Shown one piece after another: positions 18,919 through 64,000 of a DNA stretch of 64,000 nucleotides. The translations under genes were made by a program, and so were the position numbers. Under the pieces are notes generated by a model that did not search any database, was not told the origin of the DNA, and saw only the letters and a program-made list of their open reading frames with translations. This stretch comes from Citromicrobium sp. (lineage in GTDB: Bacteria > Pseudomonadota > Alphaproteobacteria > Sphingomonadales > Sphingomonadaceae). Position 1 is the stretch's first letter; each line of letters opens with the position of its first letter. Where the stretch lies: contig PBYQ01000004.1 in the NCBI GenBank assembly GCA_002729695.1, positions 46,607-110,606 on the forward strand, given 5' to 3'.

Positions 18919-18978
18919 ATGCGAAGATTCTCCACGAGTCGATGCCGCGCAACTCGCTGTATCACAGGGGAAATTTCG

Positions 18979-36270: not shown

Positions 36271-36642
36271 ATCCCCCCTGTTGCGGGTGTGAAGTGCGTT
36301 GGTCAGAAAAAAATGTCCAGACCTGAAAACCTACCCCAAATGGGGGTTGTGCCACTTGGGGTGGCTCAATAAAAAAATTCCAGCGATTCTGGGGGGATGA
36401 TCAGTTGCCCAAGAGAGGACTTTCGGGCGCGTACACTTTTCGAAGTGGCGTAGCTTGCGAAGTAGTGTTGTCTTGCGTTGGGCCGCTACCCAACGCCTCT
36501 GGGCGTTGTAGTCGCCCATCGGGCCCAGCGAACCTAAATCAGAAATAGCAGATATTTGCCCGTGCGCCGGCCCGAGAGCCGATGCGCGCGATCTTAAGTG
36601 ATTAATATCGTTTCGTGTTTTCGCAAGTCAGGGAAAGTCTTC
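36271..36642. other. Divergent intergenic region between luxR gene and autotransporter 2
   Basis: These 372 bases contain no convincing gene. They hold an A-tract (36307-36313), the 11-8-11 inverted repeat at 36333-36362, a second A-run (36371-36377), and a small perfect hairpin CAACGCC-TCTG-GGCGTTG at 36491-36508 in what would be the leader of autotransporter 2. The region is AT-richer than its neighbours near the inverted repeat, as expected for promoters. Confidence 0.6.
36333..36362. promoter_or_regulatory. 11-8-11 inverted repeat, candidate LuxR-protein operator
   Basis: Left arm ACCCCAAATGG and right arm CCACTTGGGGT match at ten of eleven positions, separated by GGGTTGTG. Flanked by A-runs on both sides. 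The left arm alone is also a small palindrome (CCCCAAATGGGG). Its position close upstream of the LuxR-type gene and in front of autotransporter 2 suits a shared operator. Confidence 0.5.
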
Positions 36643-50476: not shown

Positions 50477-51314
50477 GCAGCCGCTCGTACTGTCCGACGA
50501 TTTCGGCGAGCGCCGACAGAGCAAGCGCTTGCGGCGCCTTGCAAGACGGGATCAGTCCGATGGGGCTGCGGATGCGTGCGATCCGCTCTTCGGGTACACC
50601 GCGTTCGGTCAGAGCGAGTGTGCGCGCGATCCGTGCATTCTCACCACCCTGAGCGCCAATGTAGAACGCTTCGCTGGCCAGCGCCTGCTCGAGCAGTGGC
50701 AGTTCCCATTCGTGATCGTGAAACAGCAGCAGCGCTGCCGTCCACGGGTCGAGTTGGCAATCCTCCGCCGTCCGACCCAGCGTCAGCCGATCCTTATCGT
50801 AGGTGACGAGTTCGATACCCATTGCGGCTGCAAGCGCACCCAGACCAGTGAGTTCAGGACCCTCGCCAAAAGCCGCAATCCTCAGGGAGGGCAGGTAGCG
50901 ACGCTCCGGCAGAGGCGAGATCTCGGGCAGACCGATCTTCGCGGGTTGGCGATCCACTAGCTTATCCAGCGCGCGGCGGCACGCTCTGCGGTCCGGCGCC
51001 GGGTCGAGCAGGATGTCCAGACCACCGCCACAAGGCAGGCGAAAATCGATCTTGGGGGAGCCTCGCCCGTAGCGGATGACCTTGGGATATTCGAGCGCAC
51101 GAATATCCACCGCCAGCTGCGCTTCTAGGCAGCCGTCCGCGAGGCTGCCTATCGTGCTCCCATCCGGCAACACCGCCAGCTGTGCGCCCAATCGGCGCGA
51201 GAAGCTGCCGTCGATGCCGACGATGGTACACAGCCCGACGCCAACCTCGCGGGCCGCCGCGAGTGCTGCGTGATCGTCCCCTAGCGCCGCATCTCGCGTC
51301 AGCTCGGCAAGCAT
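50463..51314 (-). CDS. XdhC/PaoD-like molybdenum cofactor insertion protein
   Basis: A 283-residue XdhC-CoxI family protein. It has the N-terminal XdhC domain (VGLCTIVGIDGSFSRRLGAQLAV, GSTIGSLADGCLEAQL, IDFRLPCGGGLDILL) and a C-terminal Rossmann-like domain (AAFGEGPELTGLGALAAAMGIELVTYDKD ... QGGENARIARTLALTERGVPEERIARIRSPIGL). These chaperones bind the cytosine dinucleotide cofactor, allow its sulfuration and load it into the large subunit. ATG 51314 shares one base with the upstream stop (TGATG); longer in-frame upstream sequence overlaps the large subunit and is not coding. Confidence 0.92.
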   Translation of the reverse strand: MLAELTRDAALGDDHAALAAAREVGVGLCTIVGIDGSFSRRLGAQLAVLPDGSTIGSLADGCLEAQLAVDIRALEYPKVIRYGRGSPKIDFRLPCGGGLDILLDPAPDRRACRRALDKLVDRQPAKIGLPEISPLPERRYLPSLRIAAFGEGPELTGLGALAAAMGIELVTYDKDRLTLGRTAEDCQLDPWTAALLLFHDHEWELPLLEQALASEAFYIGAQGGENARIARTLALTERGVPEERIARIRSPIGLIPSCKAPQALALSALAEIVGQYERLHATA

Positions 51315-53503
51315 CAGTCGGGCATCGCGGCGAGCACGCGGTCGGGGGTCATCGGGAAGTCGAAGACGCGTGCACCGCTTGCATTGTAGATCGCGTTGGC
51401 GATCGCCGCCGCGCCGCCGCACATGCCGAGCTCGCCGATGCCCTTGGCCTGGATCGGGCTGGCCGCCGGATCGCGTTCCTCCACCATGATGACATCCAGG
51501 TCGGGCACATCGCGGTGCACGGGCACATGGTATTCGGCGAGGTCCGGGTTGACGAGGTGGCCGTCGCGCGGATCGAATTCCAGCGCTTCGGTCAGCGCGA
51601 CGCCGATGCTCCACGTGATCCCACCGAGGCACTGCGAGCGGGCGGTCTTGTGGTTGAGCACCCGCCCGAACCCGAACGCACCGAGCATCCGGTCGACGCG
51701 GGCTTCCCCGGTGAATCGATTCACGCGCACTTGCGCAAAAAACGCGCCGAAGCCCGAGGCCGTATAATCATCCGCGATGTCGCCGGGCTCGTAATACCCT
51801 TCGCGCGCAAGATCCTTGCCATCGAGGAGGTCGACGATGCTCTCGCCCGATCCTGCCTTGCCGTCTGAAAGGTCCAGTTCGGCTTCCTCGACGTCGAGAC
51901 GCGATGCCAGCTCCTCGCGGATCGCCTGACATGCGACATAGACGGCGGAGCCGATCGAGGCCGCACCCCAGCTTCCGCCCGAGCCTGGCCCACGCGGATG
52001 GCGGGTATCGCCAAGGTCGACCAGCACGCGGTCGGGGGACAACCCCAGCATTTCGCCCGCAATCTGGCTGAGGATCGTGTAGGTACCCGTGCCGATGTCG
52101 GTCATGTCGGTCTCGACCAGCGCAGTCCCGTCCGGCTTCAGCGTGACGCGGGCCTTTGCCTCCGAAACATTGTGCACGCGCGCGGCACTGGCCATTCCGG
52201 TGCCGACCCACCATTCGCCTTCGCGGGTCTGGCGGGGTTTGCGCGGGCCACGGTCCCAGCCGAACGCTTCTGCGCCCTGCCTGAGACATTCTGCCAGCTT
52301 GTGCGACGAGAAGGGCAGACCCTCTTCGGGGTTCTTTTCGGGGATATTCTTCAGGCGCAGTTCGACGGGGTCGATCCCGACTTCCTCGGCCAGCACGTCC
52401 ATCGCCGCTTCCAGCGCGGGCATGCCGACGGCCTCGCCCGGCGCACGCACCGAACCGGCGGTCATTCTGTGGATGCGCGCGACCTTTAGCATCAACTCGC
52501 GGTTCTCGCCGCCGTAGAGGAAGTGCGAGGATTGCAGCACCGGCTCGGCGAACTCCTCGCCGGGCAGGTTCGAGACCAGCGCTTCGTGACCGAACCCGGT
52601 CAACGTGCCGTTCGCGTCTGTGCAGAGCCGCAGCCGCTGTGTCGTTTCCGAACGGCGCATGATGCACTGGAACACCTGCTGGCGCGACATCACGACGCGG
52701 ACGGGGCGGCCAAGCTCTTTCGCCGCAATCGATGCCGCGACTGCTTCTTCGCTGATGCCGAGCTTCGATCCGAACCCGCCGCCGACGAACCGCGAGACGA
52801 GGCGGATATCGCCCTCCTCCATATCCAGCGCGTCGGCCAGTTCGCTTATATTGTAGTTCAGCATCTGGAGCGATGCGTAGACGGTCAGCTTGTCGCCATC
52901 CCACTGTGCGATGGCCGCGTGTGGCTCCATCGCGGCGGAGGCATGACCCCTGGTGGTATAGGTCACATCGACCGAATGAGTAGCTTCGCTCATCGCGTGG
53001 GCGAGATCGCCCTGATGGACGGTCTCGTCCTCCTGCTCTTCGGGTTCGACCGTGTTCGGATCGAGCGGGGCGCCTTCCTCCACCCGATATTCGATCGCCA
53101 GATGCTTTGTCGCATCGCGCGCCTGTTCGAATGTTTCGGCAACGACCAGCGCGATCGGCTGACCCCAGTAGCAGACGGTCTTCGGCTTCTGCTGCGGCGC
53201 TTCGTCGGCGGTGCCCTGCGCAGCGCGGGTGGTCAGCCGGGGATCGTCGATCACCGCGATGACACCGGGCATGGCGAGCGCAGCGTCCCTGTCGATCGAG
53301 GTCACTTCGCCGCGCGTGATGGTCGAGGTGACGAGCACCCCTTCCGCGCAATTATCGATTGAATATTCGGCAGCGTAGGTCGCCGTCCCGGTGACTTTCG
53401 CCAGACCTTCTACGCGCGGAAGAGCCTTGCCGATCACGCCCTGCCTCATGTCGTCGAGACGATTGCTCTCGTCCGGCTTGTCCTGCTTGAAATGCACGGT
53501 CAC
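51314..53503 (-). CDS. Molybdenum hydroxylase large subunit (PaoC/YagR-like aldehyde oxidoreductase)
   Basis: A 729-residue molybdopterin-binding subunit. Family features: N-terminal aldehyde oxidase/xanthine dehydrogenase domain (VEGLAKVTGTATYAAEY), FVGGGFGSKLG, MTAGSVRAPGEAVGMPALE, GSGGSWGAASIGSA, and near the C-terminus AKGIGELGMCGGAAAIANA, whose Glu is the expected catalytic base. Length matches E. coli PaoC (about 730), not the longer eukaryotic-type XdhB. It should oxidise aldehydes or N-heterocycles with water as oxygen source. GTG start at 53503 follows GGAGGAAGC and overlaps the medium-subunit stop (GTGA). Confidence 0.93.
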   Translation of the reverse strand: MTVHFKQDKPDESNRLDDMRQGVIGKALPRVEGLAKVTGTATYAAEYSIDNCAEGVLVTSTITRGEVTSIDRDAALAMPGVIAVIDDPRLTTRAAQGTADEAPQQKPKTVCYWGQPIALVVAETFEQARDATKHLAIEYRVEEGAPLDPNTVEPEEQEDETVHQGDLAHAMSEATHSVDVTYTTRGHASAAMEPHAAIAQWDGDKLTVYASLQMLNYNISELADALDMEEGDIRLVSRFVGGGFGSKLGISEEAVAASIAAKELGRPVRVVMSRQQVFQCIMRRSETTQRLRLCTDANGTLTGFGHEALVSNLPGEEFAEPVLQSSHFLYGGENRELMLKVARIHRMTAGSVRAPGEAVGMPALEAAMDVLAEEVGIDPVELRLKNIPEKNPEEGLPFSSHKLAECLRQGAEAFGWDRGPRKPRQTREGEWWVGTGMASAARVHNVSEAKARVTLKPDGTALVETDMTDIGTGTYTILSQIAGEMLGLSPDRVLVDLGDTRHPRGPGSGGSWGAASIGSAVYVACQAIREELASRLDVEEAELDLSDGKAGSGESIVDLLDGKDLAREGYYEPGDIADDYTASGFGAFFAQVRVNRFTGEARVDRMLGAFGFGRVLNHKTARSQCLGGITWSIGVALTEALEFDPRDGHLVNPDLAEYHVPVHRDVPDLDVIMVEERDPAASPIQAKGIGELGMCGGAAAIANAIYNASGARVFDFPMTPDRVLAAMPD

Positions 53504-54486
53504 GACGCTTCCTCCACGGCTTGTTCGAGGACGGCGTGCAGCGTTCGCCGCGCCAGCGGAATCTTGAAATCGTTCTCCCCGAAACCCTGCGCATCTTCGA
53601 GCAGGATGTCGGCAGCGCGATCGAAAAGTTCGGGGGAGGGGGCTTTGCCGATCAGCGCGTCTGCGACGCGCGGATCGTGCCACGGCTTGTGCGCCACGCC
53701 CCCGAACGCGAGATCGGCGCGGGAAAACCTGCCGTCTTCGAGTTCGACGATGGCAGCGACCGAAACCAGCGCGAAGGCATAGGACGAGCGTTCGCGCACC
53801 TTGCGATAGAGCTGCGTCCCACCGACCGGGGCGGGGAGGGTGATCGCGGTGATGATCTCGCCCGGTTCGAGCACGTTCTCGCGCCAGGGTGTGTCACCGG
53901 GGAGGCAGTGGAAATCGCGAACGGGGACTGTCCGGCTGCCGCCATCGGAAGTGGCGATCTGGACCTGCGCATCGAGCGCGCTCAGAGCCACGGCCATGTC
54001 GCCCGGATAGGTGGCAATGCATTGATCGCTGGTGCCGAGAATGGCGTGAAGCTTCGCAATCCCGTCGATCGCTCCGCAGCCGCTGCCCGGTTCGCGCTTG
54101 TTGCAGGGTTGGTCGATATTGGTGAAGTAGTAGCACCGCGTCCGCTGGCACAGGTTTCCGCCGTTCGTCGCTTTGTTGCGCAGCTGCTGGGTCGCGCCGG
54201 CGAGGATTGCGCGCGACAGAACCGGATAGTCGGCGCGCACGCGTGGATGGACCGCTGTTTCGGTATTGGTCGCAAGCGCCCCGATGGACAGGCCGCCATC
54301 GTCGGTATCTTCGATTTCAGCGAAACCGACGCGATTGATGTCGGCGAGCTGGCTCGGCGTTTCGACCTGCAACTTCATCAGATCGAGGAGGTTGGTGCCG
54401 CCGGCGATGGCCATCGCCCGGTCGTCCGAGACGGTCTGCGAGGCATCGGTCAGAGTGCGGGCGCGGGTGTAGGAGAATGGCCTCAT
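53500..54486 (-). CDS. Molybdenum hydroxylase FAD subunit with extra 4Fe-4S motif (PaoB/YagS-like)
   Basis: A 328-residue CO-dehydrogenase-flavoprotein-type subunit that passes electrons from the iron-sulfur centres to FAD. FAD motifs AIAGGTNLLDLMK (about 47) and NKATNGGNL are present. Between them and the C-terminal domain lies CQRTRCYYF...CNKREPGSGC, the four-Cys insertion that holds an extra 4Fe-4S cluster in PaoB and a few relatives, which supports assignment to the PaoABC branch rather than ordinary xanthine dehydrogenase. Start ATG 54486 overlaps the small-subunit stop (ATGA). Confidence 0.93.
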   Translation of the reverse strand: MRPFSYTRARTLTDASQTVSDDRAMAIAGGTNLLDLMKLQVETPSQLADINRVGFAEIEDTDDGGLSIGALATNTETAVHPRVRADYPVLSRAILAGATQQLRNKATNGGNLCQRTRCYYFTNIDQPCNKREPGSGCGAIDGIAKLHAILGTSDQCIATYPGDMAVALSALDAQVQIATSDGGSRTVPVRDFHCLPGDTPWRENVLEPGEIITAITLPAPVGGTQLYRKVRERSSYAFALVSVAAIVELEDGRFSRADLAFGGVAHKPWHDPRVADALIGKAPSPELFDRAADILLEDAQGFGENDFKIPLARRTLHAVLEQAVEEAS

Positions 54487-54989
54487 GCGCTCTGCTCCGC
54501 CACATCGCGAATGGCGGCGACGATGTTGGCGTAAGCGCCGCAGCGACACAGGTTGCCGCTCATGCGTTCGCGGATTTCTTCGCCGGAGATTTCTACGGCA
54601 CCTTCCAGCGTCTCGCTAGCATCGCTCGGCCAGCCATTGGCGATTTCGGTGAGCATTGCGGTGGCGGAGCAGATTTGTCCCGGCGTGCAGTAGCCGCACT
54701 GATAGCCATCGTGTTCGACGAAGGCTTTCTGAAGCGCGGATGGTTCGTCCGGCGTACCCAGCCCCTCGATCGTGGTGACCTCGTCTCCGTCATGCATCGC
54801 AGCCAGCGTCAGGCAGCTGTTGATCCGCACACCGTTGACGATGACCGTGCAGGCCCCGCACTGTCCGTGATCGCAACCCTTCTTGGTTCCGGTCAGGCCC
54901 ACGTCCTGACGCAGGAAATCCAGCAGGGTAACGCGGGGATCGTCGGGCACGGAATGCGGCGCGCCGTTTACGGAGATTGTCTGGGCCAA
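54483..54989 (-). CDS. Molybdenum hydroxylase 2Fe-2S subunit (PaoA-like, no Tat signal)
   Basis: A 168-residue subunit with two 2Fe-2S clusters: the plant-ferredoxin-type Cys39, Cys44, Cys47, Cys59 and the helical-domain Cys98, Cys101, Cys148, Cys150. First gene of the operon small-medium-large-XdhC-MobA. Start codon is TTG at 54989, fixed by AGGAGG five bases before it. Unlike E. coli PaoA, whose long Tat leader takes the complex to the periplasm, this protein begins directly with the ferredoxin domain, and no upstream in-frame twin-Arg sequence is evident, so the enzyme is probably cytoplasmic. Confidence 0.93.
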   Translation of the reverse strand: MAQTISVNGAPHSVPDDPRVTLLDFLRQDVGLTGTKKGCDHGQCGACTVIVNGVRINSCLTLAAMHDGDEVTTIEGLGTPDEPSALQKAFVEHDGYQCGYCTPGQICSATAMLTEIANGWPSDASETLEGAVEISGEEIRERMSGNLCRCGAYANIVAAIRDVAEQSA

Positions 54990-55044
54990 GTTCGCCTCCT
55001 TCCCCCGCCTAACTCATCGGAAGGGTTAGGGGTCCGAAAACGAC

Positions 55045-55078
55045 CAAAGGTTATGAATGAGCAAAGGTTATGAATGAG
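55045..55078. repeat. Perfect 17-base tandem duplication
   Basis: CAAAGGTTATGAATGAG occurs twice head to tail. It lies 56-89 bases upstream of the oxidoreductase operon start, where it could duplicate a promoter element or operator. Confidence 0.9.
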
Positions 55079-55138
55079 ATCGGGGAGCGATGCCGTCGCT
55101 GCTTCTTTTCAAGGGCGTACGATCACGATGGACGCTGT

Positions 55139-55173
55139 GTTGCGCCGAAACCGGGGGGCGGTTTCGGCGCAAC
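55139..55173. terminator. 15-pair perfect hairpin downstream of autotransporter 3
   Basis: GTTGCGCCGAAACCG and CGGTTTCGGCGCAAC pair completely around a GGGGG loop. It lies about 100 bases after the autotransporter 3 stop. No U-run follows on the minus strand, so it may be a transcript-end stabiliser or Rho-assisted terminator rather than a classical one. Confidence 0.5.
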
Positions 55174-55198
55174 GACGAGTACGGGATCGACCGAGGTC

Positions 55199-55229
55199 GC
55201 GACCCATTGCGGGATCGGCAATGGGTCGC
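55199..55229. terminator. 12-pair perfect hairpin downstream of autotransporter 3
   Basis: GCGACCCATTGC and GCAATGGGTCGC pair completely around GGGATCG, 45 bases after the autotransporter 3 stop on the minus strand. No U-run. Together with the 55139 hairpin it probably marks the end of the autotransporter transcript. Confidence 0.45.
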
Positions 55230-55253
55230 AAGGCCCGACTCGCCTGTTCGATC

Positions 55254-55277
55254 TCTGGGCCTAGTTTCTGGGCCTAG
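55254..55277. repeat. 11-base direct repeat at the autotransporter 3 stop codon
   Basis: TCTGGGCCTAG occurs at 55254-55264 and again at 55267-55277. The second copy contains the TAG stop (read on the minus strand), so the first is a duplicate of the gene end. Confidence 0.85.
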
Positions 55278-58200
55278 AACGCCAGTCGCAGCGATCCCCG
55301 CAAGGTAAGCGCGGTTTTGTCGTTGCGGTCTTCGGCACCGACTTCGCCGCTCATTTCGAACATGTCGCTGCCGCCCAGCGCGCGCAGACGTGCGAACCAG
55401 CCGTTGCTGCGCTGTTCGGGATCGAGCGTGAAGGGCGTGCCGCCCTCGAAACTTGCGGTGGTCGAGCCAAGTTCTCCACCGACGACCTCGCGCCAGCCAC
55501 CCTCGACCTCGGTGCGGAACCAGTTCTCGTCGCGAGGACCATTGCCGGTGAAATTGATGCCAACCGTCATCCCGCCGTTGACCGCGAATTCATCGCTTTT
55601 GCGGTCTTCGACGGTGAGGTTGAGCGCCTCGCTGCCACCTGTTTCGGTGTAGCCATCCTCGTCCAGGCTGACGTAATCGGCGGAGACCGCCGGGCGTGCG
55701 AAGAAGGCGCCACTGCCGCCGATCTCGTACGCCATGCCTGCGCTGGCCGTCATCAGCGTGCCGCCCCAGTCGCCCTGTATCTGACGCTCGACGTCTTTGC
55801 CGTCGAGGGTGTAGCGGAACAGGCGCCAGCCGTCGGCATCCACCTTGCCGATCGACCCGCGACCGAAGGCGGTGAAGCCGCCCCAGTGACCGCGCCAGTA
55901 GGCACCCAGTTCGTAGGTGTCGGAGTTCGCGCTCTGGTCGCCGCCAAGCTGGTCGTACTCGTTCCACATCCAGGTCGCCGAGAGGCCGAAGGCACCGAGC
56001 TTGGTGTCCACTTCTCCAGCGGCCGAGAAGCCGAACCCGCCGAGATCGTAGGCTGCCGTCTCACCGGCATCCTTGTCGCTGCTCCACAGCGCCGAGCTGA
56101 GGATAATGTCGACACCGCCGATGGAATAGACGGGGCTTGGCGGATCGGCCAGCTGCCGGGCAAATGCGCGCGAACCGAGGCTGATCCCTTCGAAGGTTCC
56201 GCCCGCATGGTCCGGCAACATCCGGCTGACTGTCGAGCGGAAGACGTCTCCGTCACTGATGCCGAGGAAGACCTGTTCGATATCGTCGTCGTTTCCAAGC
56301 GCGGAGAAGATTGCGTCGTATGCCGACGTCTCCGACCGGTTGAGGCCAAGTTCCGTGGCGGTCCGCTTTACGATGTCGATTACGATCTGGTTGGCATTGG
56401 CAGGCGTACCGAAGTCGGCCTTGAACAGGAACGGCATCGCGCCGGTGGCGAGTTCGAGATCGGCAGCGCCCGTCAGCGATCCGGCCTCGAGCACGAGATA
56501 GCTGCCTTCCGCATCATCGACATTGGCAAGCTTGATGCCCAGCTTGGCCCCGTCGGCGAAGCTGGCCGCACCCGCCACGTCGTAGAGCGAGCCTGCGCCC
56601 GCATCCTTGTCGAGCGTGGCGACGAGCAGGCCGTTGGCACCCACGCTCAACGAGCCGAGCGAGGTGGGGGACGCAAGGTCGAGCGCTCCGCCGGTCAGGT
56701 TGACGGCCAGCGAGCCCGAATTGGCGAGCGCGCCAGTGAAATAGGCGGTCCCGGCGATGGTGAGCGTATCCGCACCTCCTCCGAAGTCTGCGGTCCCGCT
56801 GAAGAGCGAGCTTCCCGACAGGCTCATCGTGTCGTTACCCGCCCCGAATGTGGCATTGCCGTATTGCCAGGCATCGCCCGAAAGCGTGTAGCTGTTGGCG
56901 CCCGCACCGAAGAAGGCATCGCCTTCGAAGGTGCCGTCGGCCAGGTCGAGCGTATCGCTACCAGTGCCCAAACGGATGTCGCCCTTGATCGATGGGGCCG
57001 TCTTCCCGGAGGCTACGACGGTTTGCTTGATCGTCGCCCCGGTGGTGTTCGCCGTGAGGTCGATGGCGAGGTTGCGATCGGAATCGGCCTTCGCTCCGCT
57101 CGCTTCGATCCCGCCGCTGTTCTCGATCAAGGTCACGGTCCCGCTGGAGTCGAGAATGGCGGTTGCGCTTCCACCTTCGCCGACGGTGGCCTTGATCAGG
57201 CCGCTATTCGCGATCGTGCCGAGCTGCGCGCCGGTATTGACCTTGACGGCAATCGCCGTGGAATTCGCGGTTGCCCCGCTCTTGGCTTCGATACCGCCCG
57301 CATTCTGGATCTTGGGTACGCTTGCCCCGGCCCCCAGGCGCAGCGCGGTCGCATCTGCGTCCCTGGAGGTTGCGCCAACCCCGCCGGTGATGCCGATGCC
57401 GTTGGCGACGGTTACCGCGCCGCCCTGTCCGCCGATGACGAGGCCATTGGCGTCGACACCGGTGTAGAGGCCGGCCCCGACGATCGTACCGTCGATCTGG
57501 ACGCCGAATTTCGCCGCAGTGCTCTGGACCGGGCCGATCGCGATATCGCGCCCGGCAGCGCCGATCACGACGGCGGGAGCGGCCCCGTAGCTGGTAATCT
57601 TGGCGATGCCTTCCTTGGCATCCTCGATCCCATCGCCATCCTCGTCGTTGTTGCTGGCGTTGTTGTTTGCGGGCGGAATGGCGAAGACGATCCCGCCGGT
57701 GACATCGCCTTCGATCAGTACGGCCGAGCCGCCCTGGAGAAGGTCGTCCGCGTCGAGCTTGGAAGGGTCGCTGGGTACCGTGGTGTAGCGATATCCGGTC
57801 GAGCTGATGGTGCCCTGGATATCCATCGCACCGGTCACGTCGCCCGCGAAGTGCACGCCGACCGCATCCTCGCCCTGCGCGCTGATCGATCCGGCAACCC
57901 GTACGTCGCCAGTCACCGCCTGCGCGTAGAGGCCGGTGGTGCGGTCGCCGACGACCTTGATCGTACCGTCGTTGCGCACCTTGCCGGTCTGCGCGCCGCC
58001 CAGCCAGATGCCGGCCGAATCATTGCCTTCGACGGTGATCGTCCCGGTGTTGGTGATCGCGCCTGCGTGCGTGCCATCGGTGCGGATGCCGAAGCGGTTG
58101 GAGCCGAGCGCGAAGGGCCCGTCCAGATCGCCATCATTATCGGTGTCGGTCGGGGTGTAGGGCTCGTCGATGGTGATCGTGCCCGAATTGTTGATCTCGC

Positions 58201-58477
58201 CCGTCGTGCCGGAAACGGCCAGGATGCCCGTTGCATTGCTGGCATTGCCGATGGTCACGGCGCCCTGGTTCACGACCTTGTGATCGCTGTCCATCGTCAC
58301 CGCCGTGCCCGAGCTGACCACGACCGATCCGGTCGATGTGATGGTGATCGAGTCGGGGGTGTTGTTCTTGACCGTGGAGGTCTGGACCGGGGTCGTCCGC
58401 TTGGTGGTGATGTCCTCCGCATGGGCGGGCACGGCAATCGCCAGAAGGGCGGTGGAGGCTAGCAGTGTGGTACGCAT
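55274..58477 (-). CDS. Autotransporter 3, 1067 residues, behind a TonB receptor
   Basis: Type Va secreted protein starting MRTTLLASTALLAIAVPAHA|ED, signal peptide of about 20 residues, with GAGG upstream. The passenger has Asn/Gly-turn beta-helix repeats (GEINNSGTITIDE, AITNTGTITVEGNDSAGIWLGG) and two Asp-rich loops, DTDNDGDLDG (about 110) and NNDEDGDGIED (about 275), that resemble calcium-binding DxDxDG loops. A run of ladder-like strands (SDTLDLADGTFEGDAFFGAGANSYTLSGD) precedes the barrel domain (about 795-1067), which ends LRLAF. It begins 80 bases after the stop of an STN-type TonB receptor on the same strand, so it is probably part of that FecI/FecR-controlled unit. Ligand unknown. Confidence 0.93.
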   Translation of the reverse strand: MRTTLLASTALLAIAVPAHAEDITTKRTTPVQTSTVKNNTPDSITITSTGSVVVSSGTAVTMDSDHKVVNQGAVTIGNASNATGILAVSGTTGEINNSGTITIDEPYTPTDTDNDGDLDGPFALGSNRFGIRTDGTHAGAITNTGTITVEGNDSAGIWLGGAQTGKVRNDGTIKVVGDRTTGLYAQAVTGDVRVAGSISAQGEDAVGVHFAGDVTGAMDIQGTISSTGYRYTTVPSDPSKLDADDLLQGGSAVLIEGDVTGGIVFAIPPANNNASNNDEDGDGIEDAKEGIAKITSYGAAPAVVIGAAGRDIAIGPVQSTAAKFGVQIDGTIVGAGLYTGVDANGLVIGGQGGAVTVANGIGITGGVGATSRDADATALRLGAGASVPKIQNAGGIEAKSGATANSTAIAVKVNTGAQLGTIANSGLIKATVGEGGSATAILDSSGTVTLIENSGGIEASGAKADSDRNLAIDLTANTTGATIKQTVVASGKTAPSIKGDIRLGTGSDTLDLADGTFEGDAFFGAGANSYTLSGDAWQYGNATFGAGNDTMSLSGSSLFSGTADFGGGADTLTIAGTAYFTGALANSGSLAVNLTGGALDLASPTSLGSLSVGANGLLVATLDKDAGAGSLYDVAGAASFADGAKLGIKLANVDDAEGSYLVLEAGSLTGAADLELATGAMPFLFKADFGTPANANQIVIDIVKRTATELGLNRSETSAYDAIFSALGNDDDIEQVFLGISDGDVFRSTVSRMLPDHAGGTFEGISLGSRAFARQLADPPSPVYSIGGVDIILSSALWSSDKDAGETAAYDLGGFGFSAAGEVDTKLGAFGLSATWMWNEYDQLGGDQSANSDTYELGAYWRGHWGGFTAFGRGSIGKVDADGWRLFRYTLDGKDVERQIQGDWGGTLMTASAGMAYEIGGSGAFFARPAVSADYVSLDEDGYTETGGSEALNLTVEDRKSDEFAVNGGMTVGINFTGNGPRDENWFRTEVEGGWREVVGGELGSTTASFEGGTPFTLDPEQRSNGWFARLRALGGSDMFEMSGEVGAEDRNDKTALTLRGSLRLAF

Positions 58478-58557
58478 TTGGGTCCTCGTCTCGGATCGTA
58501 TCGACCCGCATGACGGAGCCCGCGCGGCGCAACCTTGGCGCTCCGGCAAGTTTATTT

Positions 58558-60930
58558 TCAGAAGCTGGCGTCGATACCGAGGCGGATCGTGCGCGGCTGG
58601 AGCGGGGTGATATGCTCGCGCCCGACCGCGAAGGGCGTGCCGAGCGCGAAACGGTTGCCCTCGACATCGGCGATGTTCGTGATGCCCAGTGAAATGCCGA
58701 GGCTGTCACGCCCCACGCGGAGCACGAGGCCGCTGTCGAAATAGTCACCCTGCAACTCGCCGAGTTCCGGACCCAGGCCGAGGCGCGATTTGCCGATATA
58801 GCTGGCCCAGCCCTTTGCGGTCAGCTCAAGATTTCCGGCAAGCGTCCTGCGGTAGTCGATGCCCGCCCGCCCCGCATACCGGGCGATGTTTGGGACCTGC
58901 ATCGTACGGGTCAGAAAAGCGGCTTCGGGCTGGTCGATCGCGCTGTCGTTGTAGGTGAAGCCGCCGTTCACGCGCAGCGCGGGGGCCAACTCCACGCTGC
59001 CGGCGATGCTGGCGGTCCAGACACGGCCATCGCCGATATTGGCGGTGCTCGGCAAGCCGAAGGCATCGATGAAATCGGCCTGGATGTCGCGCCAGCGGGT
59101 ATGCGCGACGCTGGCGGTCAGATCGAAAGGACCGCGTCCCGGTCGCCCGTGACGCAGCCCGAATTCAAAGGTTGCCGCCCGATCATTGCGGAAACGGCGC
59201 ACGAAGTTGCCTTCGATGGCGAGCCCGCCGGGCCGAAACCCCTCCTGATAACGGAGGTATAGACTGGTTTCGGGTAAGACCTGGGCGAGCAGCGAAAAGG
59301 ACGGGAGGAAGGCCGTCTCGTCGCGGCTGGCGGTGATCTCGCGTCCGGCGAGGGCGATGGCTAGCGGAACGTCCTCCCCCGCACCGCCGAGTTGCGATCG
59401 CGTGTAGCGTGCGCCCGCGGTGGCGATCAGGCCTTCGAACAGGCGCGCATTCGCTTCCCCGTAAAGCGTGAATTCGGACACCTCGTTGAGGACGCCCGTG
59501 GCACTCGCGCTAAGCTCGTCGGTTTCGAGCGACCGGTTCAGCTGGGTCCGGTTCTCGGTCAGGCTGATGCCCGCGAGCCAGCCGAAGCGGCGGCCCAGCG
59601 GCTGCCAGAGCCGCGTCTCGTTTGCGATCATGCGGGTGTCGTTGCGCTGGGTGAACAGGCGCGGCGCGCCGCCGGGTGCGGTCGCATCGTACCGCTCTTC
59701 CAGATCGTGCCAGGCGATACCGGTGGAGGACCGGAATTGGACGGCCCCGAATTCGCCGGAGATGATGAACTGTCCTTGCGTGTAGTCAGCCTCCGCCCCT
59801 TCGCGAACACGCGCTGCCCGCGTCAGCGAGGGGCCGAAGCGATCGGCATACTGGCTGTCTGCGGCGCGGGTCGACTGGCCGAGCGCGATGAGGTCGGCCG
59901 TCCAGCCGGGCGCGAATTCGAGCCGGGCGATTGCGCGACCGCCGAGGATGTCCGTCCGGTTGACGTCGTTACGCCCCAGCAGGGGCTTGTCGATATAGCC
60001 GCCCTGCGTCGCGCCATCGACCACCAGACGCAAAGCGGCGCTGTCGCCTGCCAGCGGCAGGTTGAGCATCGCATTCACGTCGGCGCCCGGCTGGCCGTGT
60101 TGCGTGACCGATCCGCCGACCATACCCGACGCGTCGAACATACCCAGCTCCGGCTCGTTGGGCACCAGCCGGATGATGCCGCCGAGCGATCCTGCACCGT
60201 AAAGCGTCCCCTGAGGGCCTTCGAGCACTTCGACCCGGCGCAGGTCAGACAATCGCAAATCGGGGTCGGGCGAATTGTAACTCAGCCGCAGGTCGCCAAG
60301 GTACTGCCCAACGGTCGCCTGTGTCGGCCCGGTGAAGCTCGAATCCGCGATCCCGCGAATGAACAGCTTGTTGCGCCCGCTACCGAGATAGGTGGAAGAG
60401 ACGGTCGCCACCTGCTCCGCAATCTTCTCGGTCCCGCCGATCCCCCCGAACTCGAGATCGTCGCCATCGAGCAGGGAGACCTGCCCTGCGAATTCTTCCA
60501 GCCGTGCGCTTCGCTTGCTGGCGACGACCACGATCTCGACTGGGGGCGGAGGCGGAGGCGGGGGCGCGGCCTCGCTGGGCGGCACGACAGGGCGCGGCTT
60601 GCGGGTACGGGGTTGAACGGCCTTGCGACGTGGGCTTTCGGCAGCTTCCATCCGCCATGCCGACGGCCCGACCGAGACTGCCCGCGCGTCTGCCATTCGG
60701 GCGAGGCGACGGATCGCGTCCTCCGGGGCCATCCTGCCTCGAAGCGCCTTCACCTGTCTTTTCGCCAAAGCCGGATCGGTGATCACGATGCTGGTGCGCG
60801 TCTGGCGTGCGAGCACGATGGCCGCATCCGAAAGCGTCCCCGCAGGGGAGTGCACCGCGACGCGCTCCGCCGCGGCGGGGGCAGACAGCAGCGCGACGAA
60901 CGCGGCCAGAAGGATCCAGACGATCCGCAT
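58558..60930 (-). CDS. TonB-dependent receptor with N-terminal STN signalling domain
   Basis: A 790-residue outer-membrane transducer of the FecA/FpvA class. After a signal peptide (to about AAAERV, residue 21) comes the STN domain (about 22-110, LSDAAIVLARQTRTSIVI) that contacts a FecR protein in the periplasm, a Pro-rich linker with eight consecutive prolines, a TonB-box-like VEIVVVASKR, the plug (ELEFGGIGGTEKIAEQV region, RRVEVLEGPQGTLYGAGSLGGIIRLV) and a 22-strand barrel with terminal Phe (RLGIDASF). It starts one base after the fecR stop. The cargo is unknown; besides siderophores, sphingomonad receptors of this kind also import sugars. Followed by autotransporter 3. Confidence 0.94.
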   Translation of the reverse strand: MRIVWILLAAFVALLSAPAAAERVAVHSPAGTLSDAAIVLARQTRTSIVITDPALAKRQVKALRGRMAPEDAIRRLARMADARAVSVGPSAWRMEAAESPRRKAVQPRTRKPRPVVPPSEAAPPPPPPPPVEIVVVASKRSARLEEFAGQVSLLDGDDLEFGGIGGTEKIAEQVATVSSTYLGSGRNKLFIRGIADSSFTGPTQATVGQYLGDLRLSYNSPDPDLRLSDLRRVEVLEGPQGTLYGAGSLGGIIRLVPNEPELGMFDASGMVGGSVTQHGQPGADVNAMLNLPLAGDSAALRLVVDGATQGGYIDKPLLGRNDVNRTDILGGRAIARLEFAPGWTADLIALGQSTRAADSQYADRFGPSLTRAARVREGAEADYTQGQFIISGEFGAVQFRSSTGIAWHDLEERYDATAPGGAPRLFTQRNDTRMIANETRLWQPLGRRFGWLAGISLTENRTQLNRSLETDELSASATGVLNEVSEFTLYGEANARLFEGLIATAGARYTRSQLGGAGEDVPLAIALAGREITASRDETAFLPSFSLLAQVLPETSLYLRYQEGFRPGGLAIEGNFVRRFRNDRAATFEFGLRHGRPGRGPFDLTASVAHTRWRDIQADFIDAFGLPSTANIGDGRVWTASIAGSVELAPALRVNGGFTYNDSAIDQPEAAFLTRTMQVPNIARYAGRAGIDYRRTLAGNLELTAKGWASYIGKSRLGLGPELGELQGDYFDSGLVLRVGRDSLGISLGITNIADVEGNRFALGTPFAVGREHITPLQPRTIRLGIDASF

Positions 60931-60931
60931 T

Positions 60932-61894
60932 CTAGCGTGCGTCCAGTACCCAGCCCGTTTTGCCCTTGCGGACAGAGATGCCCAACAGGGCCCCGATCGC
61001 CTGCGGATCGTCCTTCAGCGGTGCAATCAGCACGCTGCCGGAGACCGACTGGGTTTCGTTACCCGGCGCAGCCGTGAAGTCGATGCCCGTCGCCCGGCTC
61101 AGATCGGTGGCGACGCGGGCAAGGCTCGCTTGCTGGAAGGTCAGCCGCCCATCGCGCCATTCGCCAATCATCTCGGGTGCGACGCTGCTCACCTCGTAAT
61201 CGCTCGAACCGGCTGCACTGGTGAGCACTTCGCCCGGATCGACCCGCACGTTCTGGCCTTGCGGATTGAACAGCACGGCCCCTTGCGACACGGCGACGGT
61301 CAATTCACCATTCCCGGTCCGCACATCGAACACGGTGCCGATATCGACCAGCCGGTCCTCCCCGATAGCAACCGTGAAGGGCTCGCTGGCGTCGTGGTGG
61401 AGCGTGAACAGCGCTTGCCCGTCCTCGAGCCTTGCGAAGTGATCGCCTTCTTCACCGAGAACCAGCTTCGAACCGCCCGCCAATTCGATCGATCCGCCAT
61501 CGTCGAGCGCGATCAGGCGCGTTTCACCGGGCAGGGTGCTGTAGGTCGTCGGTCCGCCTTCTGCCTGCCACATCCCGAATGCTACCAGCGCAGCGAGCCC
61601 TGCGACCAGCGCGCCATTAAACCATCGCCGGCTGACGCGCCGATCTGTGGGCTCGTCATTGTCATCGTTGTCCGCCATCGGACGTGCTGCCTCTGCCTCT
61701 GCGCCATCGTCCGCAGCAGCGGCGATGGCGTCATAGGCTGCGGCATGCGCAGGATCGGCTTCGAGCCAGTCTGTGAAGCCTTCCCAGTCGTCGAAGGCCG
61801 GGTCGCCAGTACGCACGGCCCAGGCCAGCGCGTCTTCCCGAATGGTATCGTCATGCAACACGATGCAAATCTCCTGCTGCAAGGACGGAGACAT
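60932..61894 (-). CDS. FecR-family anti-sigma factor
   Basis: A 320-residue inner-membrane regulator. Cytoplasmic N-terminal region with the FecR_N/DUF4880 pattern (EDALAWAVRTGDPAFDDWEGFTDWLEADPAHAAAYD), one membrane segment at about 90-108 (ALVAGLAALVAFGMW), then the periplasmic FecR domain (LPGETRLIALDDGGSIELAGGSKL) and a C-terminal STN-like domain (LTFQQASLARVATDLSRATGIDF). It holds and relays signal to the preceding ECF sigma factor. ATG 61894 is chosen because GAGG precedes it; a TTG nine bases upstream overlaps the sigma stop and is an alternative. It overlaps or abuts fecI and the receptor gene closely. Confidence 0.93.
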   Translation of the reverse strand: MSPSLQQEICIVLHDDTIREDALAWAVRTGDPAFDDWEGFTDWLEADPAHAAAYDAIAAAADDGAEAEAARPMADNDDNDEPTDRRVSRRWFNGALVAGLAALVAFGMWQAEGGPTTYSTLPGETRLIALDDGGSIELAGGSKLVLGEEGDHFARLEDGQALFTLHHDASEPFTVAIGEDRLVDIGTVFDVRTGNGELTVAVSQGAVLFNPQGQNVRVDPGEVLTSAAGSSDYEVSSVAPEMIGEWRDGRLTFQQASLARVATDLSRATGIDFTAAPGNETQSVSGSVLIAPLKDDPQAIGALLGISVRKGKTGWVLDAR

Positions 61895-61899
61895 GGACG

Positions 61900-62418
61900 T
61901 CAAACCTCATCCATACGCTCCTTCAACTCGGTGAGTGCGCGATAGGCGCGGCGCAAATCGCTCTCGACCGTGCTCAGGCTGACCCCGAATTCCTCTGCGA
62001 TTTTGCGCTGCGGAACTTCGTCGACGCGGTGCCGGCGGAAGATCGCGGCGGGGCGGGGGCCCAGTTCGTCGAGCGTCCGCTGCGCAAGCCGGGCATATTC
62101 CTGCCCCAAGACGACGCGCTCCGCCGAAGGGGCATCCGACTGGTCCGTCCCCGTGCCGCCGCTCGCCTCGGTCCAGTTGCGTTCGCGCTGCGCGGCCTGC
62201 TTTGCCGATCGGTAGTGATCGATCATCAGCCGGTTCGCAATGCTGAACAGGTAGGCTTTGGGCGACGCGATCGGGCCGGGCTTCGCGCTGCTCACCTTGA
62301 TCCACACCTCTTGCAGCAGGTCTTCCGCCGTATCGCCCGCACCGCGCGCGCGCAGGAACCGGAGCAGCTGGTCGCGATGCTCTTGGAAGGCGAGTGCAAG
62401 GGGTGTGGGGGCGGACAA
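61900..62418 (-). CDS. FecI-like ECF sigma-70 factor
   Basis: A 172-residue ECF sigma factor. Region 2 (FQEHRDQLLRFLRARGAGDTAEDLLQEVWIKV ... PKAYLFSIANRLMIDHYRS) and region 4 (LGPRPAAIFRRHRVDEVPQRKIAEEFGVSLSTVESDLRRAYRAL) are both complete; region 3 is absent as usual. It should direct RNA polymerase to the promoter of the receptor and perhaps autotransporter 3 when the receptor is occupied. First gene of the sigma/FecR/receptor/autotransporter group; 176 bases separate it from the sulfatase upstream. Confidence 0.95.
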   Translation of the reverse strand: MSAPTPLALAFQEHRDQLLRFLRARGAGDTAEDLLQEVWIKVSSAKPGPIASPKAYLFSIANRLMIDHYRSAKQAAQRERNWTEASGGTGTDQSDAPSAERVVLGQEYARLAQRTLDELGPRPAAIFRRHRVDEVPQRKIAEEFGVSLSTVESDLRRAYRALTELKERMDEV

Positions 62419-62532
62419 TGTCAGTGTCGTCGGGGTTCGAGGAAGTGCGCTGAATAGGCGCGATGGCCGACGCGCGAAAGGTCTATGTCCTCCAGCATGG
62501 CTGGGGATCGCATGTCAGCTCGCCGTGGTGCG

Positions 62533-62572
62533 ACCCGGACGGCGCGCGTCACCGCGAGATACGCGTCCGGGT
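62533..62572 (-). terminator. Weak candidate terminator after the sulfatase gene
   Basis: ACCCGGACG and CGTCCGGGT form a perfect nine-pair stem with a 22-base loop that can add further G-C pairs. It lies 22 bases beyond the sulfatase stop on the minus strand, but no U-run follows. Confidence 0.35.
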
Positions 62573-62594
62573 GATGCGTCTCGCCGTGCCGGCA

Positions 62595-64000
62595 TCAGTT
62601 CGCCCAATAGGTGTATTCGTCGCCATCCTCGTATGTGTCCGCCAGTGTCTTGTCGATCATGACGGGCATCTTCACGACCGACGGATAGAGCGGCGGTTTG
62701 CGGTTGCGGTGATGCGCGGCGAGCATGGTGCGCAGGCGCTTTTCCTGCTCGGGACGCTTGCCGATCAGATTGACCCGCTCGGTCGGGTCGTTCGACAGAT
62801 CGTACAGCCATGCCTTCTTGCGGACATCGTCGGTCATCAGCTTCCAGTCGCCCGCGCGCACCGCACTGATCGTTCCGCTTTGCCAGAAGATCGCGCCGTC
62901 CGGCCGTTTAAGCGGGCCATCGCCCTTCGCGACCGGCAGCAAATCGACTCCGTCGATCGGTCGATCTCCGGGCAGGGTGGCCCCAGCCGCAGCGGCGATG
63001 GTGCTGAACAGGTCCACATGGGTTGCCGGATCGCGCACCTGCCGCCCTGCGGGGAGCTGCGCGGGCCAGCGCATCATCAGCGGAACTCGCACGCCCCCTT
63101 CGAACAGGGTGATCTTCCAGCCGCGATAGGGCGCGTTCACATCGGGCAGGCCGATATAACCCGGCGCGCCATTATCGCTGGAGAAGAGGACCAGCGTGTT
63201 ATCGGCGAGCCCTTCTTCCTCCAGCTTGTCGAGAATACGCCCCACGCTTCGGTCGAGCGCGCGGACCATCGCTGCATAGACGCGGAGCCGATGCGGCTGG
63301 ATGTCGCCCACAGCTTCGTAATCTTCGCGCGTGGCCTGCAACGGCGAATGCACTGCCCAGTGCGCGAGGTAGAGGAAGAACGGCCGATCCTTGTTGGCAT
63401 CGATTGCGGACAGAGCCTCGTCGGTCCAGTAATCGGTCAGGTAACCGCCCGGCGTAAAGGCCTGCGACCGGTCGAAGCGATTGCCGAAGCGTGCCCGTGC
63501 CCACAGGAAGCGGTCGACCGGATCGAAATCCACCGGCGCATTTACCACGCGCGGATCGTCCTTCGGAAGGTAGCCGAGTTCGCTCAGGACGAGGCTGTGA
63601 TCGAAGCCCTGTGTCAGCGCGTCGAATTCGCGCGCCTCCCCCATGTGCCACTTGCCGATATGCATCGTGCTGTAGCCGCGCGCTTTCAGCAATTCGGCGA
63701 TGGTGATCTCGCTCGCGGGGAGGCCCTGCTCGGCGAAGGGAGGCGCGTCGTGATTGGCCTGCGCGTCGTATTCGATCGGCGGCAGGTCGGGGCGGATGTC
63801 TTCGTTCACAGTCGTCACCACGCGCGCCATATTGTCGGGCGTGGGGGTGAACTCGAAGCCGGTACGAGTCGGGTAACGGCCGGACATCAGCATCGCGCGG
63901 GACGGGGCGCAGGTCGCGTTGCCGGCGTACCCTTGCGTGAAGTTGACGCCATCGCGCGCGATCCGGTCGATGTTCGGGGTCGGGACCAGACCCCCTGCCA
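62595..64000 (-). CDS. Arylsulfatase-family sulfatase (N-terminus cut by window edge)
   Basis: The minus-strand frame runs in from the right edge for 468 codons to the stop at 62595. The formylglycine motif CAPSR is present, with the Cys codon at 63911-63909, in the context YAGNATCAPSRAMLMSGRYPTRTG, preceded by PTPNIDRIARDGV. Other family marks are HIGKWHMG, LAHWAVHSPLQA, FSSDNGAPGY and KITLFEGGVRVPLMMRWPAQL. It hydrolyses sulfate esters; in marine bacteria such enzymes strip sulfate from algal polysaccharides. A first-ATG call at 63893 would lose the catalytic Cys, so the true start is outside the window. Signal peptide cannot be seen. Confidence 0.94.
   Translation of the reverse strand, partial: AGGLVPTPNIDRIARDGVNFTQGYAGNATCAPSRAMLMSGRYPTRTGFEFTPTPDNMARVVTTVNEDIRPDLPPIEYDAQANHDAPPFAEQGLPASEITIAELLKARGYSTMHIGKWHMGEAREFDALTQGFDHSLVLSELGYLPKDDPRVVNAPVDFDPVDRFLWARARFGNRFDRSQAFTPGGYLTDYWTDEALSAIDANKDRPFFLYLAHWAVHSPLQATREDYEAVGDIQPHRLRVYAAMVRALDRSVGRILDKLEEEGLADNTLVLFSSDNGAPGYIGLPDVNAPYRGWKITLFEGGVRVPLMMRWPAQLPAGRQVRDPATHVDLFSTIAAAAGATLPGDRPIDGVDLLPVAKGDGPLKRPDGAIFWQSGTISAVRAGDWKLMTDDVRKKAWLYDLSNDPTERVNLIGKRPEQEKRLRTMLAAHHRNRKPPLYPSVVKMPVMIDKTLADTYEDGDEYTYWAN

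Follow-up and report, generated by a model that had tools for sequence, protein, structure and literature searches.

We analysed a 64,000-nucleotide (nt) window of a Citromicrobium draft genome (GenBank assembly GCA_002729695.1, contig PBYQ01000004.1, positions 46,607 to 110,606; all positions below are those of the window) and, within it, four consecutive genes on the minus strand that encode an extracytoplasmic function (ECF) sigma factor, a FecR-type anti-sigma factor, a TonB-dependent receptor and an autotransporter (Table 1). Sigma factor, FecR-domain anti-sigma factor and TonB-dependent receptor occur together, as in FecIR-type systems, and the receptor carries a signalling (STN) domain that was recognized through a profile. 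Pfam STN scored E = 0.0065 on the N-terminal piece of the single receptor sequence, below the cut-off, and was unlisted for the whole protein; with a profile of 16 receptors, the N-terminus aligned to the signalling domains of four known receptors (FecA, FpvA, HasR and a pseudobactin receptor). The receptor profile also matched FyuA, FpvA, FecA and HasR. Judged from the position of the promoter-like site and of a ribosome-binding site, the true start of fecR is likely the GTG at 61861.

The autotransporter is of type Va, with a signal peptide (identified by eye), a passenger and a C-terminal PF03797 barrel in one polypeptide. A gap of 80 nt (58478-58557) separates it from the receptor gene; we took the ATG at 58477 as its start and discarded a longer, TTG-started frame reaching 58549, which arose from mechanical listing of open reading frames (ORFs). 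In the structural model, a helical linker joins beta-helix and barrel. The predicted passenger aligned with Vag8 (Z 27.7, root-mean-square deviation 7.1, 374 residues) and pertactin (Z 22.4, root-mean-square deviation 4.3, 418 residues), and the barrel with those of EstA (3kvn; Z 29.4 over 339 residues) and NalP (1uyn; Z 28.5 over 274 residues). The translocator fold is the same as in the latter two proteins; the passenger differs, being a long beta-helix here, whereas EstA carries an esterase and NalP a protease. Foldseek and VIA lists returned resemblance to beta-helices and barrels but no function.

Table 1. Features of the signalling unit and the autotransporter in the window. Unit counts refer to the 80 non-identical complete units described in the next section.
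Feature	Position	Strand	Basis
ECF sigma factor gene, 172 amino acids from TTG	61900..62418	−	Sigma70_r2 and r4_2 (Pfam); TIGR02937
Sigma residue 156 (Arg), in the putative region 4.2 −35 recognition helix VESDLRRAY	61951..61953	−	tracks the −35 base
ECF-type promoter-like site before fecR, GAGG-N16-CCGTC	61884..61908	−	recurs across units; overlaps the sigma stop codon
FecR-type anti-sigma gene	60932..61903	−	Pfam FecR and DUF4880; 4-nt overlap with the sigma gene
TonB-dependent receptor (transducer) gene, 790 amino acids	58558..60930	−	Plug and TonB barrel (Pfam); starts 1 nt after fecR
Receptor signalling (STN) domain, residues about 15-103	60622..60888	−	profile positions 15-103 align with FecA (1kmo) residues 24-112
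ECF-type promoter-like site of the autotransporter gene, CAAGGTT-N12-CTCCGTC	58512..58537	−	recurs across units; within the receptor-autotransporter gap
Autotransporter gene, 1067 amino acids, ATG 58477 to stop 55274	55274..58477	−	PF03797, E = 5.1e-19; model mean pLDDT 90.5
Beta-helical passenger, residues about 21-705	56363..58417	−	predicted structure
Passenger loop with calcium-type motif DxDxDGDxDG, residues 105-127	58097..58165	−	pattern in 74 of 80 units, a count biased upward in the named half, where the motif was among the search patterns
Passenger loop with EF-hand-like motif DEDGDGIEDAKE, residues 275-292	57602..57655	−	pattern in 73 of 80 units
Translocator beta-barrel, 279 residues, 789-1067	55277..56113	−	likeness to EstA and NalP barrels
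Terminator-like hairpin 3' of the autotransporter gene	55139..55173	−	15-bp perfect inverted repeat; segment fold z −5.19

The unit is conserved among sphingomonads in two gene orders

Of 149 genomes of the window's family, 53 had a match to the autotransporter protein at E ≤ 1e-10, and the top matches spanned the full length, passenger included; 59 had a receptor match at E ≤ 1e-80. Both proteins were present in 45 genomes, the autotransporter only in 8, the receptor only in 14 and neither in 82, where only the best few candidates per genome were scored and absence from the match lists is no proof of absence. When the flanks of 56 family autotransporter loci were analysed together with the window, 40 of these 57 loci (window included) held complete units, indicating that the gene order is not due to chance. 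A scan of named genomes, in which one of the two patterns searched for was the first calcium-type motif, yielded at least 77 further autotransporter loci. At least 45 of them are complete units, from Novosphingobium, Sphingopyxis, Sphingomonas, Sphingobium, Blastomonas, Pelagerythrobacter, Stakelama and other sphingomonads as well as metagenome-assembled genomes, two of which carry no finer label than Alphaproteobacteria (L222) and Proteobacteria (L288). The remaining 32 comprise 29 mostly caulobacterial loci, some of them short-flanked, and two from Sphingomonas (L229, L233), all of which lack the unit, as well as a truncated contig (L252). After dropping five units with an identical 600-base autotransporter segment, 80 of 85 were left, that is, at least 80 non-identical complete units: 40 from the family, with the window, and at least 40 from named genomes.

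In all of these units the genes lie on one strand, in the order sigma-fecR-receptor-autotransporter (60 units) or autotransporter-sigma-fecR-receptor (20 units). The gap between receptor and autotransporter in the former has a median of 97 nt, measures at most 200 nt in 52 of the 60 and reaches 950 nt at its maximum; the gap between autotransporter and sigma gene in the latter has a median of 258.5 nt. The autotransporter-first order sits at separate places of the sigma tree, so the genes were probably rearranged more than once and still stayed together. Autotransporter homologues also occur alone, which would suit chance neighbours with no regulatory link; yet the number of non-identical units, their two orders and the covariation of sigma factor and promoter described below make such a coincidence exceedingly improbable. 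No autotransporter adjoins the receptor units L115, L116 and L117, and none was matched in their genomes.

Promoter-like sites precede fecR and the autotransporter gene

Reading the gaps between receptor and autotransporter genes revealed CCAAGGCTG...CTCCGTC at fixed spacing. A site of this type is also found before fecR, where it overlaps the sigma stop codon (GATGAGG..TGA..CTCCGTC), and the form common to both is (A/C)GG-N17-CGT(C/T). The autotransporter site was found in 74 of 80 units, that is, in 55/60 sigma-first and 19/20 autotransporter-first units, and is thus tied to the gene and not to its position in the unit. The fecR site, in turn, was detected in 58/60 sigma-first units versus 1/20 of the other order, in which a promoter of the autotransporter gene at the head can serve the whole unit and the internal site is mostly missing. 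Random 190-nt windows of the same loci contained (A/C)GG-N17-CGTC in 5.9% of cases and NGG-N17-CGT(C/T) in 12.8%.

A matrix was built on 35 pattern-picked sites upstream of autotransporter genes and applied with each locus left out in turn. At scores of at least 10, it gave partly circular counts of 35/57 upstream of the autotransporter, 0/40 upstream of the receptor, 2/40 upstream of the sigma gene and 8/40 upstream of fecR (13/40 at scores of at least 8), and the autotransporter site ranked top of the whole locus in 30/40 units. On named units outside the training set, scores of at least 12 were reached in 30/40. Among the misses of the matrix test were a split autotransporter (L078, matched in two pieces), a partial autotransporter match (L281) and a contig edge (L228); L078 nevertheless has a site upstream of the first fragment, and L281 one scoring 23.4 just upstream of the partial match. 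L058 passed the matrix test but failed the pattern scan. As the sigma gene itself has so few sites, the sigma factor is probably not autoregulated in the gene order of the window; in the autotransporter-first order, the autotransporter site stands ahead of the whole unit.

Other transcription signals were sparse. Simple scans detected no sigma-70-type promoter in 54500-63500 and called no terminator in the receptor-autotransporter gap, whose RNA folded no better than shuffled sequences (z −0.84). The hairpin behind the autotransporter gene was not called by the terminator scan either, which requires a T-run. Rfam returned nothing at gathering scores in 54900-63000, and inspection by eye of the area upstream of the sigma gene in 23 units revealed nothing obvious.

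The short gap and the missing terminator would also suit a single operon in which the autotransporter is transcribed solely by read-through from the receptor gene and the gap sequence is no promoter. We rejected this as the only route and hold it to be improbable, because the site, at its fixed spacing, stays with the autotransporter gene when that gene comes first or lies remote from the unit (L054, L061; see below).

In the genome of one receptor unit without an autotransporter (G069; L116, 8236-8560, minus strand), the site is kept directly after the receptor and a tannase/feruloyl esterase gene takes the autotransporter's place. Glycosyltransferase-like genes lie near the receptor-sigma units L115 (by Pfam), L123, L127 and L129 (by eye).

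The −35 base covaries with sigma residue 156

Apart from the three technical cases, all autotransporter sites that escaped the first matrix come from a set of 14 units, whose sites, where present, have CGG in place of AGG at unchanged spacing. These units form one sigma clade (support 0.989), all 14 members of which have Gln at sigma residue 156, whereas all 66 others have Arg. In the window's sigma factor, the residue lies in the segment VESDLRRAY, putatively the −35 recognition helix of ECF sigma factors. Among Gln units, 12/14 have a C-type site (CGG) before the autotransporter gene and 12/14 before fecR, with no site in the remaining two in either case. Among Arg units, the autotransporter site is A-type (AGG) in 62/66 and absent in 4/66; five of the 62 also contain a C-type match, one a T-type and one a G-type. 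Their fecR site is A-type in 46/66 and absent in 18, with T only and C only in one unit each. The strength of the covariation, as read from the sequences, is that the two promoter-like sites of a unit agree with each other and changed together with the sigma residue.

Loci other than complete units follow the same rule in part. Of 20 loci picked for a receptor homologue, four with Arg sigma factors and no adjacent autotransporter (L115-L118) carry AGG, and four with Gln paralogues (L119, L120, L121, L128) carry CGG. Lone autotransporter genes have a site in 3/17 family cases and in 1/26 named cases tested. One of them (L054) has AAGG and lies about 1.2 Mb from an Arg sigma relative in genome G027, and another (L061) has CGG and lies about 0.2 Mb from a Gln relative in genome G057, both relatives being at least 53% identical.

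The predicted target set is small in the window's genome

The exact pattern CAAGGY-N14-TCCGTC occurs only once in the window's draft genome, at the autotransporter site. A wider regulon in this genome was considered and rejected: allowing one mismatch gave 28 matches versus 35 for the reversed control, and the loci of the other 27 matches scored at best 17.6, compared to 25.5 for the autotransporter site. Across genomes, the pattern was matched 107 times versus 41 for the reversed control in 38 genomes with autotransporter or receptor, and 43 versus 28 times in 38 genomes without matches to either; a spacing one base longer gave 23 matches versus 30 for its control (38 genomes). The strict form CAAGGYT-N12-CTCCGTC occurred 32 times in the 38 positive genomes and not once in the 38 negative ones, which are negative in being absent from the autotransporter and receptor match lists and, G100 excepted, may hold sigma homologues of low similarity. 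Seventeen of the 32 strict sites lie upstream of an autotransporter gene (in G114, one sits farther up the receptor-autotransporter gap) and two before fecR, and the remaining ones include sites preceding DUF4136 lipoproteins, an OmpA-like protein and a glycosyltransferase. Twenty stretches surrounding non-autotransporter matches were analysed.

Strict or near-strict ECF-type sites precede DUF4136 lipoprotein genes in four genomes, G102, G071, G138 and G079 (L166, L168, L179, L181); by their upstream sequence, these genes are possible further regulon members.

The autotransporter gene as a probable direct target of the unit's sigma factor

Because the sites recur and their −35 base tracks residue 156, it is very probable that the unit's own sigma factor acts directly on the autotransporter gene, as on the fecR-receptor pair. 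Several observations weigh against this. The training sites of the matrix were picked by pattern in the same loci, hence the partial circularity of the leave-one-out counts. The Arg/Gln split corresponds to one sigma clade and may therefore represent a single evolutionary event, and the −35 element before fecR shares bases with the final codons of the sigma gene, where some of the base change could have followed from changes in the protein. Twelve of the 20 receptor-homologue loci are uninformative: nine have no site, L127 and L133 have a T-type site, and L129 has a C-type site inside a coding end; L130 and L134, among these twelve, have Ala at sigma residue 156. The Gln units L056 and L063 have neither site, the second autotransporter copies L072, L073 and L077 are siteless in genomes that carry the sigma factor, and so are the autotransporters L074 and L075, whose genomes hold sigma relatives of 43-48% identity. 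Conversely, the lone autotransporter L065 has an A-type site in a genome (G053) with no sigma homologue at E ≤ 1e-15. The gap of 80 nt with no terminator found leaves room for read-through from the receptor gene, and strict sites elsewhere indicate that the regulon may be wider in some genomes.

A first-pass annotation of the window, made from its letters, had proposed a near-gapless sigma, fecR and STN receptor gene set followed by an autotransporter 80 nt further on the same strand, and coordinates, Pfam and the STN profile agree with it. Its suggestion that the autotransporter is a regulated output is well supported by the comparison of sequences, given the conserved unit and a gap site that tracks the unit's own sigma factor, and the genome search it had called for recovered the adjacency in the at least 80 units above. 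It had also held that an independent promoter and terminator in the gap would speak against regulation from the unit. An ECF-type promoter-like site is indeed present and a terminator was not found; since the site tracks the unit's own sigma factor, it strengthens the idea of a regulated output instead of weakening it.

Taken together, we consider it likely that the unit is a signalling system of the Has/Fec type with a type Va autotransporter as direct, dedicated target of its ECF sigma factor. Sequence comparison reveals the conserved unit, its pair of sites and how these covary with the sigma factor; promoter activity of the sites, induction by a ligand, surface display and any cooperation of passenger and receptor are inferred. 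A ligand would bind the receptor, whose signalling domain would then relieve the FecR-like anti-sigma factor, a step established for the family and presumed here. The freed sigma factor would read two promoters, one overlapping the end of the sigma gene and raising fecR and receptor expression, the other in the 80-nt gap and raising that of the autotransporter, which would expose its long beta-helix, calcium-type loops included, at the cell surface.

Possible roles of the autotransporter

Direct control by the sigma factor is compatible with different roles for the autotransporter, and conservation of the passenger bears on them. Across 28 aligned autotransporters, mean pairwise identity was 0.57 for residues 21-268, 0.50 for residues 293-705 and 0.48 for the barrel, so the passenger is no less conserved than the barrel, and the two calcium-type loops reached 0.68 and 0.62. 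Among 24 unlinked, mostly caulobacterial autotransporters, the first calcium-type motif was present in 24/24 (in part a search bias) and the EF-hand-like motif in 18/24; the basic function of the autotransporter therefore seems independent of this receptor. The motifs were found in 0/6 of the weakest autotransporter relatives and in 8/13 and 10/13, respectively, of other lone sphingomonad autotransporters.

One role that we regard as plausible, at somewhat below even chances, is adhesion or biofilm formation as an output once the receptor senses a nutrient or a neighbour, with no part in uptake. The beta-helix resembles the passengers of Vag8 and pertactin (a shared fold that shows no function), homologues exist without the receptor, and PUMA3 with its exoprotein PdtA sets a precedent; however, strong passenger conservation, as seen here, is unusual in host-facing adhesins.

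It is also conceivable, although we are doubtful, that the autotransporter is a surface partner of the receptor whose passenger captures or positions the receptor's ligand, sigma control then serving uptake. The co-occurrence of both proteins in 45 of 149 genomes, the conservation of passenger and loops, and the analogy with HxuA-HxuC and HasA-HasR point in this direction. Set against them are 8 of 53 autotransporter-positive genomes without a receptor match at E ≤ 1e-80 (best few candidates scored), the at least 29 mostly caulobacterial autotransporter loci without the unit, of which the 24 tested hold the motifs as given above, and the receptor units L115, L116 and L117 without an autotransporter. 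More speculatively still, the autotransporter might be a calcium-dependent surface co-receptor, with a beta-helix that gathers ligand for the TonB receptor and a receptor signal that amplifies both; we think this unlikely. If true, sphingomonads would have kept an uptake-and-sensing machine made of a TonB-dependent transducer and a type Va autotransporter, both promoters of which record a natural change in sigma-promoter specificity between Gln/CGG and Arg/AGG.

Comparison with known systems

In Serratia marcescens, HasI turns on hasS and hasR without activating its own gene, and a −35 element, TTTACGGGTTT, precedes both targets and is required for hasS transcription (PMC9249621). The unit resembles the Has system in that its sigma factor is predicted, from the location of the sites, to raise anti-sigma factor and receptor but not itself, in that the HasI element TTTACGGGTTT is similar to the (A/G)CGGGT of 8/12 Gln autotransporter sites, and in that an extracellular partner (HasA) is part of the system. 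It differs in its output, which is a type Va autotransporter preceded by a promoter-like site of its own and not a hemophore (HasA) that has dedicated secretion proteins, and in that Arg units, the window included, carry AAGG or GAGG. The adjacency of sigma, anti-sigma and STN receptor genes is shared with FecIRA of Escherichia coli, whose FecI, however, serves a single promoter before fecA (PMC9249621), whereas sites precede fecR and the autotransporter gene here.

PUMA3 of Pseudomonas aeruginosa (VreA-VreI-VreR) likewise links cell-surface signalling to a nearby-encoded, type V-secreted exoprotein, PdtA (PMC2729926, PMC5422565). Overexpression of VreI raises tpsA/tpsB, the association of PUMA3 with the two-partner secretion genes is conserved, and PUMA3 seems not to control its own receptor (PMC2729926). 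There, the output is a type Vb TpsA/TpsB pair (PdtA/PdtB) in a larger regulon, with type II secretion genes among its members; here, it has its own PF03797 barrel (type Va) and no TpsA/TpsB two-partner arrangement, and the fecR-receptor pair bears the same type of site as the autotransporter gene. HxuCBA of Haemophilus influenzae, covered together with PdtA/PdtB in PMC5422565, also encodes a TonB receptor with a beta-helical, type V-secreted surface protein, but relies on two-partner secretion and Fur regulation, and the available part of that article does not mention ECF sigma control.

These precedents temper the idea in the first-pass annotation that the combination of cell-surface signalling and type V secretion is little described (PUMA3 for type Vb, PMC2729926; HxuC-HxuA, PMC5422565). 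The literature surveyed by titles and abstract starts, a survey with most subscription papers and preprints outside its reach, contained no description of a FecIR-receptor-autotransporter unit, which suggests that a classical autotransporter as a conserved, dedicated signalling output has not been described there before. The unit is a genuine, conserved variation on cell-surface signalling in which the autotransporter is a very probable direct target, a mechanism that sequence comparison strongly supports.

Sphingomonads are rich in TonB receptors (PMC9249621), and for the targets of Sinorhizobium meliloti FecI no promoter motif was found (PMC6180224), so a defined alphaproteobacterial FecI-type promoter would be useful; two further articles, PMC10413115 and PMC11637429, in their available parts, have no direct bearing on the unit. 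The window's genome offers one receptor-linked sigma factor with a predicted promoter, a very small set of strict sites and a testable output. The covariation of one residue with one base at two promoters provides a simple test of how the specificity of an ECF sigma factor can change without loss of its regulon, and, should the passenger help the receptor, a type Va partner would join the known helpers of TonB receptors.

Neighbouring genes

The draft genome (46 contigs, 93% complete) contains three PF03797 matches, all inside the window. The two besides the autotransporter of the unit belong to further autotransporters on the plus strand, at 18919-34608 (ORF of 5229 amino acids) and 36598-42861 (ORF of 2087 amino acids); hmmscan at 1e-5 returned no family for the latter protein. 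Downstream of the unit, at 51314-54989 on the minus strand, lie genes for a molybdopterin hydroxylase (MoCoBD, FAD-binding and 2Fe-2S subunits). A sulfatase gene (PF00884; 62595-63893, minus strand) adjoins the sigma gene, which may be a coincidence; the lone autotransporter gene of L229 is also trailed by a sulfatase-like ORF, recognized by eye.

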